DNA of 27,203 nt from a virus, in the IMG/VR virus record IMGVR_UViG_3300034102_002439, positions 1 to 27,203 of that record; one strand, 5' to 3'. A model generated the notes under the pieces. It had not been told where the DNA came from. It saw only the letters and a program-made list of their open reading frames with translations, and searched no databases. The translations under genes were made by a program, and so were the position numbers. Positions 5,054 through 25,141 of this stretch are shown piece after piece (the stretch's first letter is position 1; each line of letters starts with the position of its first letter).

Positions 5054-5140
5054 TAGGCAGCAAACCGGTGTGGGCTGTATAATCCAGAAGCCGGACCAAT
5101 GCCTTCGGGGTTGGTATTATTAACTTGCTTTTAAAGGAGA
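5054..5140 (+). promoter_or_regulatory. Candidate promoter and structured leader of the Hsp20 gene
   Basis: A TATAAT hexamer lies at 5078-5083 with a 4-of-6 match to the -35 box (TAGGCA, 5054-5059) at an 18-base spacing. Transcripts starting near 5090 would carry a leader of about 55 bases. This contains a hairpin with ACCAA and TTGGT arms and an inner CC-TTCG-GG tetraloop (5095-5115), then a strong AAAGGAG ribosome site at 5134-5140. No T-run follows the hairpin, so it is not an obvious terminator. The CCTT at its tip could alternatively pair with the ribosome site. Confidence 0.45.
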
Positions 5141-5145
5141 AAACT

Positions 5146-5604
5146 ATGACTCACCTAAATCTAGGTCGTATTAACTTTGGACCTCTGGTTCCTTCAACTG
5201 TTGGTTTTGACCGCTACTTCGATGCGTTTGAAGCATTAGAAAAGGCAGTAACCACAACTTATCCTCCACACAACATTGTAAAAGAAGATGATAATAATTA
5301 TATCGTCGAACTTGCTGTTGCTGGTTTCAAAGAGGATGAAATTGAAATCGAAATTGTAAAGAATGAACTAGTAATCCGTGGAAATAAAACCGCGGAAGAT
5401 GCCCGTTCTTTCTTGCATCGTGGAATCGCCACCCGTTCCTTTAAGAAGATTGTTCACTTGGTAGACACAATCAAAGTCAAAGGAGCGCGCCTGGACAACG
5501 GCATTCTGTCTGTTGAACTGGAGAACGTGATTCCAAAGGAAGACATTCCTAAGCGCATTCCTATCAGTACGGTAAGTAAGAAGAAAGAACTACTTCAGGA
5601 ATAA
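5146..5604 (+). CDS. hsp20: Small heat shock protein, Hsp20/alpha-crystallin family
   Basis: This 152-residue protein starts at the ATG preceded by AAAGGAG. The in-frame TTG at 5125 lacks such a site. The N-terminal 40 residues contain the FDRYFDAFEALE type of segment. An alpha-crystallin domain follows at about 42-135, with YIVELAVAGFKEDEIEIEI, ELVIRG, the FLHRGIATRSFKK core and the LDNGILSVELEN motif close to its end. A C-terminal IPI tail motif (RIPIST) is present, which in sHSPs docks on neighbouring subunits. Such proteins are ATP-independent holdases. They are a marker gene of T4-like cyanophages and pelagiphages, where a role in virion assembly or in protecting proteins during infection is assumed but unproven. 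Confidence 0.93.
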   Translation: MTHLNLGRINFGPLVPSTVGFDRYFDAFEALEKAVTTTYPPHNIVKEDDNNYIVELAVAGFKEDEIEIEIVKNELVIRGNKTAEDARSFLHRGIATRSFKKIVHLVDTIKVKGARLDNGILSVELENVIPKEDIPKRIPISTVSKKKELLQE

Positions 5605-6811: not shown

Positions 6812-6888
6812 TATCTAAGCCATAGAAAAAATCAATTAGACTTTACTGTTAATTGATGTATACTATGGCTAGATATTTTTGAAAGGAG
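6811..6888 (+). promoter_or_regulatory. Long inverted repeat with promoter and T-run before the rubrerythrin gene
   Basis: The arms ATATCTAAGCCATAG (6811-6825) and CTATGGCTAGATAT (6863-6876) form a 14-pair stem with one bulged A. A second nested stem pairs ATCAATTA (6831-6838) with TAATTGAT (6850-6857). The outer stem runs into TTTTT (6876-6880), so for transcripts from the metallophosphoesterase gene it may work as a terminator. Within it, TAGACT (6837-6842), 16 bases and TATACT (6859-6864) look like a promoter that would start near 6871 and escape the left arm. The AAAGGAG ribosome site (6882-6888) follows. Confidence 0.6.
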
Positions 6889-6893
6889 TAACT

Positions 6894-7343
6894 ATGTCTG
6901 TTACATTAAAAAATCTTGAAAGTGCATTGGCTGGCGAATCCATGGCTCACATCAAGTATCGTTATTTTGCCAAAATCGCCCGTGAAGAAGGCTTTGAAGA
7001 TGTTGCGAAACACTTTGAACACACTGCTGACCAAGAAATCAAACACGCCTGGGGTCACCTGGAACTGTTGATTGGTAAGCCTTCAACTAAAGAATGTCTT
7101 GAAAAGGCAATCGCTGGTGAAACTTATGAATTCACCGAAATGTATCCACAGTTTGAAGCTATTGCTATTCGTGAAGGTGAACTAGAAGCCGCTAAAGAAG
7201 CAAAAGAACAAACCGAGGAGTCAAAACTTCATGCAGAACAATTTAAAAAAGTCCTTGCACTGGCTGAGAAACGTTTCACTGCACTTAAAAAAGTGGAAGA
7301 ACGACACGCCAATGCTTACAAAGATGTACTAGGGAGTCTATAA
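6894..7343 (+). CDS. Rubrerythrin, ferritin-like diiron domain
   Basis: This is a 149-residue ferritin-like four-helix protein starting at the ATG after AAAGGAG. The family's iron ligands are present. E15 lies in AGESMAH, E48 and H51 in QEIKHAW, E76 and E79 in GETYEFTEMY, and E-x-x-H occurs at 135-138 in VEERHANAY. There is also an earlier E109-x3-H113 in the ESKLHAEQF helix. Rubrerythrins reduce hydrogen peroxide with electrons from a rubredoxin domain usually fused at the C-terminus. Here the protein stops before that domain, and a separate rubredoxin-like ORF begins on the stop codon (TAATG). It probably protects the infected cell or phage enzymes from peroxide. An oxidative-stress gene is unusual for a T4-type replication region. 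Confidence 0.92.
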   Translation: MSVTLKNLESALAGESMAHIKYRYFAKIAREEGFEDVAKHFEHTADQEIKHAWGHLELLIGKPSTKECLEKAIAGETYEFTEMYPQFEAIAIREGELEAAKEAKEQTEESKLHAEQFKKVLALAEKRFTALKKVEERHANAYKDVLGSL

Positions 7344-7474
7344 TGTCAGAAAGAGTATACGTTTGTGTAGTTTGTGGCCACACACTATCAGAAGCAGATT
7401 ATTTGAGTTTGCCAGATTCTGTTAATTGTCCAGAGTGTGGTGTTTCTAAAGAAGATTATGTTTTGATGGAGTAA
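7343..7474 (+). CDS. Stand-alone 43-residue rubredoxin-like protein
   Basis: This short ORF was read by hand. It encodes YVCVVCGHTLSEADYL, a short linker, and NCPECGVSKEDYVLME. C8-x2-C11-G and C29-P-x-C32-G are the two knuckles that hold the single iron of rubredoxin. The loop between them is only 17 residues, as in the C-terminal domain of rubrerythrin rather than in full-length rubredoxins (about 52-54 residues). Its ATG shares one base with the stop of the ferritin-like gene, so the two are coupled. Functionally it should pass electrons to the diiron centre. The arrangement looks like a rubrerythrin split into two polypeptides. Frameshifting is not needed, because a proper stop and start are present. 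Confidence 0.85.
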   Translation: MSERVYVCVVCGHTLSEADYLSLPDSVNCPECGVSKEDYVLME

Positions 7475-7477
7475 TTC

Positions 7478-7888
7478 ATGGACTGTATGGTCATTGGTGA
7501 TAGTATTGCGGTAGGTACAGCAATGTACCGAAAAGAATGTGTTAGTTATTCGCGTGGTGGTTGGAATAGTTGGCAGTGGAATAAAGACTATCTTGATAAA
7601 GCTTCAAGTAAGTCCTATAAAACTGTGATTATTAGTCTAGGCGCCAATGACCATAAAGGTGTAAAAACCGAACAAGAACTCCGCAAGATGCGTCAAGCTA
7701 TCAAAGCGGATAGAGTTTTTTGGATTAGTCCTGGTATGGAACGCAAGCCCGTACCTCAGACTGCAATTGAACAAATTGCAAAAGAATATGGTGATTTTGT
7801 TTTGCCTCGTCCGAAAGAACACATGAGTGCTGATGGTGTTCATCCAACAGGCAAAGGTTATAAAATTCTTGCGGAACAAGCGAAGTGA
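7478..7888 (+). CDS. Small SGNH/GDSL-type hydrolase
   Basis: This 136-residue protein has the four blocks of the SGNH fold. GDS with nucleophile S9 opens the protein, G27 lies in SRGGW, N57 in SLGANDHKG, and D119-x-x-H122 in SADGVHPTGKGY. Such enzymes are esterases, often deacetylating or acylating-reversing enzymes on carbohydrates. The size is close to the minimum for the fold and there is no signal peptide, so it acts in the cytoplasm or as part of the virion. Given the sugar operon elsewhere in the window, an acetyl-sugar substrate is possible but unproven. A GGAG ribosome site in the end of the rubredoxin gene precedes its ATG. Confidence 0.85.
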   Translation: MDCMVIGDSIAVGTAMYRKECVSYSRGGWNSWQWNKDYLDKASSKSYKTVIISLGANDHKGVKTEQELRKMRQAIKADRVFWISPGMERKPVPQTAIEQIAKEYGDFVLPRPKEHMSADGVHPTGKGYKILAEQAK

Positions 7889-23320: not shown

Positions 23321-23988
23321 TGTTTGATATTACACTTTATGGTCATCTAACTAATGACCATATCTTTGATGGACAAGAAGAATCTATGTCTCTTGGTGGC
23401 ATCGCCAATTGCTGGCGCGCATTATGTGATTTAGATATTAAAATGAATATCGGTCTATCGCCTTCAGCACTAGGTGAAGCAAATATTTACCTTGAGAGAA
23501 AACACTCTAAAAGAAATTCTATTGCAGAATTGAATAAAGAAAAGTTTGAGGTGAAAGTCAAACCTTCTAAAATGTCTCATGTATTGTATTTGAATGAACT
23601 GCATGACACCCGTTTTATTAAAGAATTAAGTGGTGTTTTGAGTGCAGATTTGTGCAAAGGTGAAGAAGTTAAGTATGAATTGTTGAAACACTTTGATTAT
23701 GTTTTTGTTGCAAATGATGAGGACCATGATATCGAAAAGATTCGCTGGTACTCAAATATGGTCATTGTACATTCACCTGAAGGCAGTGTAATTTCTGTTG
23801 GTGAAATGATTCAGCCACCCTACATGGTGCATAAAATGCACATAGTTGAAAATGCAAATGTACTTGGTGCTGGAGATATGTTTGCATCGTGTTTTCTGTA
23901 TGCTATACATAATAAATGGTCACTTGACGGTGCAAGAGAATTTGCACACATTAAGACTGCTGAATTGATTAGGAAATATAATGTCTAA
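23320..23988 (+). CDS. PfkB-family carbohydrate kinase, shortened
   Basis: This 222-residue protein has the N-terminal PfkB pattern SLGGIANCWRAL and the C-terminal signature VLGAGDMFASCFLYA, in which D186 would be the catalytic base and GAG the anion hole. It lacks roughly 80 residues compared with ordinary ribokinase-type enzymes (about 300), mainly in the lid and mid-domain. It may therefore be a minimal kinase or need a partner. PfkB kinases phosphorylate sugar hydroxyls. HldE, which makes heptose 1,7-bisphosphate, is one example. It sits between the phosphatase and the nucleotidylyltransferase-isomerase fusion, with overlaps of 1 and 8 bases, which suggests one pathway. Confidence 0.82.
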   Translation: MFDITLYGHLTNDHIFDGQEESMSLGGIANCWRALCDLDIKMNIGLSPSALGEANIYLERKHSKRNSIAELNKEKFEVKVKPSKMSHVLYLNELHDTRFIKELSGVLSADLCKGEEVKYELLKHFDYVFVANDEDHDIEKIRWYSNMVIVHSPEGSVISVGEMIQPPYMVHKMHIVENANVLGAGDMFASCFLYAIHNKWSLDGAREFAHIKTAELIRKYNV

Positions 23989-25141
23989 AAAATACAATTT
24001 ACTTTTGCCAATCGCAGGCAAAGCACAACGATTCCTTGATGCTGGCTATATGATGCCAAAGCCATTGATTCGCGCCAAACACAAACATGTTATAGATTGG
24101 TCCATGGATTCTATTGACTATGGAGATTGTAATTTAATTTTCATTGTTAGACTCGACCACATTTACAATTTCAGTATTGATAAGATTCTGAAGCAAAAGT
24201 TTGGTGAAGATATTAAAATTGTTACAGTTGACCATGTAACTAGAGGTGCATTAGAAACTTGTACTCTAGCTGAAGAATATATTGATAATGATTTGCCTTT
24301 GTTCATCTATACACCAGATGTTTTCTTCGGACCTAAATTTGACCCCGAATCTGTATCTAAAGATTCTGATGGTTTTCTACTAACATTCTTAGCAAATAGT
24401 CCAGACCATAGTTACTCCGATTTTGATGAAAATGGTGTAGTTTCTCGCGTTGTTGAAAAAGAAGTTATCAGCCAACATGCTAACGTTGGTCTATACTATT
24501 TCAAAACTGGCAGTATGTTCTTGCATTATGCATGGAGAGCAATTGACGATAATCTGATGGTAAAAGGTGAGTTCTATATTGCACCCATCTACAATTATAT
24601 GATTCATGAAAAGCTTAAAGTAACTGCATATGATACTGCAAAAATGCACATTCTTGGTACGCCAGATACCTTTGAGTTTTTCTGTAAGCGAGTATTGCCT
24701 AGATTCGGTGACAAACCAATCGCACTAGCTGCCGACCATTCTGGCTTCGATTTGAAAGAAGAATGTAAAGATTTGTTAATTGATTTGGGTCTTGATTACA
24801 TTGACGTTGGCACATATGTTGATAAGTCTTGCGACTACTATGATTATGTTAGCCAGTCGGCTAAACTTGTTGAAGATGGGCATTGTGACCATGCAATCTC
24901 TTTCTGTCGTTCAGGACAAGGTGTAAATATTGCGGCAAATCATTGTGAACCATTTATCTCTGCTCTAACATTTGATGATTTCACTGCACGAATGGCGGTT
25001 GAGCATAATTGTGCGAACCATTTTGCTGTTCCCTCAAAGTATGTTGATAAAGTCATTCTTGAAGATATGATACTAACATGGATGCAGACAACCTTTGATG
25101 GTGGTCGCCATTTTACTCGTTTGAATAAGGTGTTGAAATAA
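23981..25141 (+). CDS. Sugar-phosphate nucleotidylyltransferase fused to an RpiB-type isomerase
   Basis: This 386-residue protein has two enzymes in one chain. Residues 1-240 form an NTP-transferase domain. LLPIAGKAQRFLDAGY followed by MPKPLI is the nucleotide-binding loop, and IYTPDVFFG carries the metal aspartate. Residues 244-386 form a ribose-5-phosphate isomerase B/LacAB domain. It has LAADHSGFDLKEE (D252, H253) and SFCRSGQGVNIAANH, with C309 56 residues after H253, the same spacing as H10-C66 in E. coli RpiB. HNCANHFAVPSKYV follows. The usual CGTG loop reads CRSG here. A fused isomerase and nucleotidylyltransferase would catalyse the first and last steps of a nucleotide-sugar route. The chain is intact, and it overlaps the kinase by 8 bases. 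Confidence 0.88.
   Translation: MSKKYNLLLPIAGKAQRFLDAGYMMPKPLIRAKHKHVIDWSMDSIDYGDCNLIFIVRLDHIYNFSIDKILKQKFGEDIKIVTVDHVTRGALETCTLAEEYIDNDLPLFIYTPDVFFGPKFDPESVSKDSDGFLLTFLANSPDHSYSDFDENGVVSRVVEKEVISQHANVGLYYFKTGSMFLHYAWRAIDDNLMVKGEFYIAPIYNYMIHEKLKVTAYDTAKMHILGTPDTFEFFCKRVLPRFGDKPIALAADHSGFDLKEECKDLLIDLGLDYIDVGTYVDKSCDYYDYVSQSAKLVEDGHCDHAISFCRSGQGVNIAANHCEPFISALTFDDFTARMAVEHNCANHFAVPSKYVDKVILEDMILTWMQTTFDGGRHFTRLNKVLK

Follow-up and report, generated by a model that had tools for sequence, protein, structure and literature searches.

The stretch of viral DNA analysed here, referred to as the window, is a linear record of 27,203 bases and encodes a one-domain diiron protein together with a free rubredoxin. 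This gene pair is real, well conserved and widespread in viral genomes, and it is not a split enzyme. On the strength of sequence comparison we consider it likely that the phage pair is an adapted proteobacterial rubrerythrin-rubredoxin operon, which would carry out rubredoxin-dependent peroxide reduction in conjunction with a host reductase. If so, many uncultured T4-like phages carry a complete small peroxide-reducing module in their replication cluster, beside an Hsp20 gene, and oxidative stress during infection becomes a directly testable selective force. The pair would also offer a rubrerythrin system naturally made of two proteins, so that the enzyme and its electron donor can be studied apart.

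The features of the window on which the analysis is based are the following:

5125..5604, plus strand: Hsp20-type small heat-shock gene (Pfam match), more constant than any other upstream neighbour of the pair
6837..6864, plus strand: weak match to a sigma-70-like promoter, 5' of the pair (motif scan)
6883..6888, plus strand: Shine-Dalgarno-like AAGGAG 5' of the diiron gene (sequence)
6894..7343, plus strand: diiron (erythrin) gene, 149 aa, a group-5 rubrerythrin lacking a fused rubredoxin domain; ATG start, stop codon TAA at 7341-7343
7218..7232, plus strand: helix-D motif Glu109-Ser110-x-x-His113, with Ser where other rubrerythrins have a Glu ligand
7296..7319, plus strand: second motif Glu135/His138/Tyr142 in a C-terminal helical extension, 25 residues beyond the helix-D motif
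7331..7336, plus strand: Shine-Dalgarno-like AGGGAG within the 3' end of the diiron gene, 6 nt 5' of the rubredoxin ATG
7341..7345, plus strand: TAATG stop/start overlap with one shared base (sequence)
7343..7474, plus strand: free rubredoxin gene, 43 aa, with a shortened loop (17 residues separate the two CxxC motifs); ATG start at 7343-7345

The sequence-only reading of this DNA had described two open reading frames meeting at a TAATG junction, and both their coordinates and the one-base overlap are confirmed. The region scanned upstream of the pair contains four sigma-70-like matches, compared with 2.1 expected. The diiron protein matches the Pfam Rubrerythrin family with 62.2 bits (cut-off 22.8), and a search of PHROGs returned no rubrerythrin family for it (best E 0.016). 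It consists of a ferritin-like rubrerythrin domain with no rubredoxin domain in the chain, as in the unfused members of group 5. The 43-residue protein matches Pfam Rubredoxin (PF00301) with 24.2 bits (cut-off 23), a family that is matched at E <= 0.01 by 27/27 members of the rubredoxin alignment (A4), and scores 21.9 bits against the rubrerythrin-type rubredoxin domain, below the cut-off of 26.5. All four of its cysteines (Cys 8, 11, 29 and 32) are present and are invariant in the 27 aligned members, and its structural model (pLDDT 87.8) finds rubredoxins as best structural matches with a probability of 1.00 and an E value of 0.006 for this very short chain. Judged by these profile scores, the protein belongs to the free-rubredoxin family and not to the rubrerythrin C-terminal type; it is predicted to bind one iron via its four cysteines. 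Classical two-domain rubrerythrins (group 1) are unlike the pair in the window, where the rubredoxin has an open reading frame of its own and its CxxC spacing is 17, not 10-14. At 43 residues it is among the short natural rubredoxins. The short rubredoxin of Desulfovibrio desulfuricans (PDB 6rxn) is likewise free and of similar small size (chain 45-46 residues), whereas that of the window is slightly shorter and is encoded beside a diiron protein.

A scan of viral contigs with the diiron protein yielded at least 591 confirmed relatives, the best 80 of which were analysed. With the window these make 81 loci, 80 of them readable; the remaining one (L075) was left out, its contig stopping about 25 nt beyond the diiron gene. 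Two separate frames, with an ATG-started rubredoxin, are present in 80/80 readable loci (the best of at least 591 relatives plus the window), so that the search for separate-gene versions in other phage genomes, proposed in the sequence-only reading, had a positive outcome. The junctions of these 80 loci, again the best of at least 591, comprise 55 overlaps of 1 nt, 24 overlaps of 4 nt and a single spacing of +1 nt. An SD-like tetramer precedes the rubredoxin at every one of the 80 (best of at least 591), compared with 180/1600 control stretches. The median dN/dS of the rubredoxin genes is 0.015, 0.111 and 0.092 for proteins of 43, 42 and 44 residues, respectively, and that of the diiron genes lies between 0.05 and 0.10. 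Both frames are under purifying selection, and they are packed for linked translation in an arrangement that is conserved and selected. A chance origin of the rubredoxin frame was rejected on the grounds of the two-frame count in these loci, the best of at least 591, and of the low dN/dS. The reverse scan of viral contigs, seeded with the rubredoxin alignment, produced 80 loci, 78 of them with new identifiers, and the diiron gene lies directly upstream of the rubredoxin in 77 of these 78; the contig of the lone exception starts 15 nt before the rubredoxin. Some loci of the two scans share a contig, and the 153 phage loci used below, drawn from overlapping sets, represent 128 distinct diiron gene sequences.

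The pair had been regarded as rare in a phage. This holds for catalogued phages, where 0/50,697 phage records match over 80% of the diiron protein, but not for uncultured phages, in which the pair is common, with at least 591 viral relatives of the diiron protein. A phage rubrerythrin-rubredoxin pair is not described in the titles, abstract openings and passages of the literature surveyed, which lay mostly outside subscription journals and preprints; a single viral rubrerythrin is reported from silage (PMC10146946).

The descent of the pair was approached through 80 cellular relatives of the diiron protein from a genome collection. Fifty-three are long one-domain proteins like that of the phage, mostly from Betaproteobacteria, and an open reading frame with both CxxC motifs stands right behind the diiron gene in 52 of these 53 unfused loci; the contig of the 53rd stops 180 nt downstream. 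Another 17, all cyanobacterial, have the rubredoxin fused into the diiron protein, and the remaining 10 are other erythrins, mostly short. In a tree of 120 rows, built by a quick method with SH-aLRT support and having many open forks, the 36 sequences from phages fall in a single clade (100), nested together with 49 sequences from proteobacteria in a larger clade (99), and the fused cyanobacterial sequences form a clade of their own (100) outside the phage and proteobacterial one. The diiron protein is, by this placement, a member of the unfused branch of the 'cyanobacterial-type' rubrerythrins (group 5). For this group, Cardenas et al. 2016 report that a proteobacterial clade lacks a rubredoxin domain and that a cyanobacterial clade has one (PMC5114695); none of the terms 'rubredoxin gene', 'adjacent', 'virus' and 'phage' was found in that paper. 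Neighbouring locus tags in Polynucleobacter, Pnuc_1376 and Pnuc_1377, are reported as rubrerythrin and rubredoxin (PMC3308952).

With the proteobacterial group-5 proteins that lack a rubredoxin domain (PMC5114695), the phage proteins share the one-domain form, the clade, the ES..H and second E..H motifs and an adjoining rubredoxin gene. They differ in packing, since most phage pairs overlap by 1 or 4 nt whereas 49/52 cellular pairs are 10-203 nt apart (the other 3/52 having a spacing of -4 nt). They differ also in the rubredoxin: phage rubredoxins have 42-50 residues (80 loci, the best of at least 591 plus the window), with 20 residues between the CxxC motifs in 68/80 and 17 in 12/80 of these best loci, including the window, compared with 29 in 45/45 cellular rubredoxins measured. 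The phage spacings thus fall outside both the short (10-14) and the long (27-32) classes reported for such motifs (PMC5114695). Because the phage genes nest among unfused proteobacterial pairs, separate genes are the likely ancestral state for the phages. The pair likely descends from the two-gene set of bacteria, the two-gene state having been inherited and the genes subsequently packed tighter and the rubredoxin loop shortened. Cyanobacterial RbrA-type proteins (about 230 aa) have a homologous diiron domain, the same unusual helix-D motifs and a rubredoxin domain of the free-rubredoxin family, yet both of their domains reside in one chain.

These comparisons bear on the view, taken in the sequence-only reading, that a normally fused rubrerythrin has been split in this phage, or that the stop codon at 7341-7345 reflects a sequencing error. 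The view has in its favour that classical rubrerythrins and the cyanobacterial relatives are fused (PMC5114695; for the relatives also seen here). The suspected error is excluded by the relatives, since the same two-frame arrangement recurs in every readable viral locus (80/80, the best of at least 591), and a split does not agree with the two genes of 52/53 unfused cellular relatives, with the nesting of the phage genes in their clade, or with the free type of the rubredoxin. Moreover, none of 17 further long-form viral loci, retrieved with a cyanobacterial query, has a fused member. Taken together, we regard a split or an error as very improbable. Even harder to credit is that the operon is a passenger serving no function in the phage, as this is countered by the low dN/dS of both genes and by their constant place near the clamp-loader and Hsp20 genes. 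Among the 80 loci, which are the best of at least 591 and include many short contigs, 61 have an Hsp20 gene close to the pair; the corresponding numbers for the two clamp-loader genes are 42 and 48. In the window the pair is surrounded by genes for the sliding clamp, two clamp-loader subunits, a DNA polymerase, UvsX and a replicative helicase, families that we read as replication genes of T4 type, and the window as coming from a T4-like phage.

A few viral loci depart from the common pattern. A rubredoxin is present within 500 nt of the diiron gene in 15 of the 17 further long-form loci and was not found within that distance in two (L322 and L326), which represent a viral lineage where the open reading frame after the diiron gene looks unrelated. 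In two others (L332 and L334) the rubredoxin is at least 159 nt away, beyond another open reading frame. In L332 this inserted frame (2441-2620, 59 residues) starts in a TAATG overlap and matches Pfam DUF2061, a predicted membrane protein, with 24.3 bits; L334 has the same arrangement. Two unverified gut phage scaffolds (L344 and L345), which may be bacterial DNA, carry a classical fused rubrerythrin. A second, separate phage lineage of sulerythrin type is formed by the Mosig-type erythrins (L083-L162; L082 is Pelagibacter phage Mosig), and no such rubredoxin frame was found nearby in 80/80 of their loci.

The metal site of the diiron protein is altered. The sequence-only reading had stated that all iron-binding residues are present in both proteins, and this is borne out for the four rubredoxin cysteines and for Glu15, Glu48, His51, Glu76, Glu79 and His113 of the diiron protein, but not for the helix-D Glu; the canonical rubrerythrin site is complete in its Glu and His ligands save for this one, where Ser110 stands, directly preceded by Glu109. 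Position 126 of sulerythrin, the helix-D Glu that is changed in E126D-type entries and that is known in the family as a metal ligand, aligns without gaps to Ser110. The model of the diiron protein (mean pLDDT 94.5) has helices at 3-31, 35-60 and 65-93 and a very long one at 97-148, and shows the rubrerythrin/sulerythrin fold (Z 13-14); its residues 1-129 superpose on residues 5-133 of Pyrococcus furiosus rubrerythrin with Z 13.1 and an rmsd of 2.1 over 129 aligned positions, in support of this register. The structure alignment (A3) drew on 74 of 95 non-redundant sequences. Glu109, Ser110, His113, Glu135, His138 and Tyr142 are invariant in 153/153 phage, 53/53 cellular and 17/17 cyanobacterial sequences (223 in all). 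The 'aerobic-type' (group 4) proteins sulerythrin and ferriperoxin, and the Mosig-type phage erythrins, likewise have a four-helix diiron fold without a rubredoxin domain, but they possess a canonical helix-D E..H, which the protein of the window lacks, and no C-terminal extension; the ordinary helix-D motif is present in 79/79 Mosig-type sequences, which are also without a nearby rubredoxin. The helix-D change is an unexplained alteration of the diiron site across a whole rubrerythrin lineage, and in our view the most interesting loose end.

The second motif follows the first at 25 residues in 151/153 phage loci and at 28 in the other two, compared with 21 in 17/17 cyanobacterial sequences; two odd offsets among the cellular sequences probably reflect a match to the wrong motif, in helix A. 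The segments around the two motifs match each other best at exactly the motif offset, and scores as high were reached in 0/500 column shuffles for phage, 0/500 for cellular and 5/500 for cyanobacterial sequences. The second motif resembles an ordinary helix D more closely than does the first (30.6 versus 21.9 for phage, 34.4 versus 26.9 for cellular sequences), and for this reason we weighed whether the C-terminal E..H might be the one that belongs to helix D in the bundle. This assignment seems the less likely one, as the model (helix D at 97-148), which contains neither metal nor second subunit, and the P. furiosus superposition place Ser110 at the ligand position. The simplest reading of the sequences is that the second motif arose by tandem duplication. 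We tentatively extend this, as a speculation that may well prove wrong, to a metal site rebuilt throughout the group-5 rubrerythrins, including those of phages. A tandem duplication of 25 residues, about seven helical turns, would have doubled the metal-binding half of helix D, with the copy inside the bundle having Ser for Glu and an invariant Glu one residue earlier. The second copy, which is like an ordinary helix D and lies on a projecting helix, might form a second metal site or an inter-subunit site, perhaps serving as a dock for the free rubredoxin, and phages would have disseminated this rewired two-protein peroxidase widely.

In the proposed mechanism, a host NAD(P)H-dependent reductase would reduce the rubredoxin, which would hand single electrons to the dimetal site of the diiron protein, where hydrogen peroxide would be reduced to water during infection. 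The attribution of an oxidative-defence type of protein with its own free rubredoxin to a phage, made in the sequence-only reading, is supported, and the diiron protein probably reduces hydrogen peroxide. We infer iron loading, electron transfer between the two proteins, peroxidase activity and a benefit to the phage. No protein matching Pyr_redox_2 or NAD_binding_1 was found in 12/12 viral records that contain the pair wholly or in part (these records may be incomplete), whereas the control genomes matched Pyr_redox_2 in 14/14 and NAD_binding_1 in 10/14. For these two families in these 12 records a phage-encoded rubredoxin reductase was set aside, and a host donor would therefore be needed. 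NrdB, sought as a possible client, occurs in 8/12 viral records.

The linkage of the two genes makes the phage rubredoxin the likely electron donor to the diiron protein. It need not be the donor, since the diiron site of Anabaena RbrA, reported to be a peroxidase, is reduced by FNR without the rubredoxin domain (PMC6616624). Ferriperoxin, a peroxidase that has no rubredoxin domain and depends on an outside donor, is likewise reported to use FNR (PMC3317640). Both examples would suit a rubredoxin that mainly serves another acceptor, such as a host oxygenase or reductase pathway, with the diiron protein taking its electrons elsewhere, and so would L322 and L326, which have no adjacent rubredoxin. 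Also counting against the proposed mechanism are L332 and L334, where the rubredoxin follows another frame, the Mosig-type loci without a rubredoxin frame (80/80, though of a different lineage) and the presence of Ser110 in place of one canonical ligand. We nevertheless consider another main acceptor unlikely, given that a diiron gene lies directly upstream at 77/78 rubredoxin loci and that the pair persists even with a frame inserted between its members. Somewhat less probable still is that the four-helix protein, instead of being a rubrerythrin-type peroxidase, uses its altered dimetal site for iron or manganese binding or for oxygen scavenging. Ser110, shared by all 223 sequences, and the invariant second E..H could be taken in this sense, as could the reported Km of Anabaena Rbr for peroxide of 2.25 mM, compared with 35 uM for the P. 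furiosus enzyme (PMC3317640), a high value that is in line with an altered metal site. Against it, the cyanobacterial relative is reported to be a strong peroxidase that guards heterocysts from peroxide (PMC6616624); by length and group, Anabaena RbrA would belong to the fused cyanobacterial set. Rubredoxin-dependent peroxide reduction is the reading that we favour for the phage pair.

Several other genes of the window are of note. A GDSL-type esterase gene (7478-7888) lies directly 3' of the pair, a position it takes in only 10/80 loci (the best of at least 591). The gene at 15748-16992 matches DUF6267 strongly (377 bits); this family has no assigned function. At 23981-25141 a 386-residue frame combines a C-terminal ribose/galactose isomerase domain (PF02502, 119.5 bits) with a long N-terminal part that has no Pfam match. 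Its neighbours include a HAD-type hydrolase, a weak PfkB match, a nucleotide-sugar epimerase and a C-methyltransferase, and the region from 19 to 25 kb therefore looks like a sugar-nucleotide cluster.
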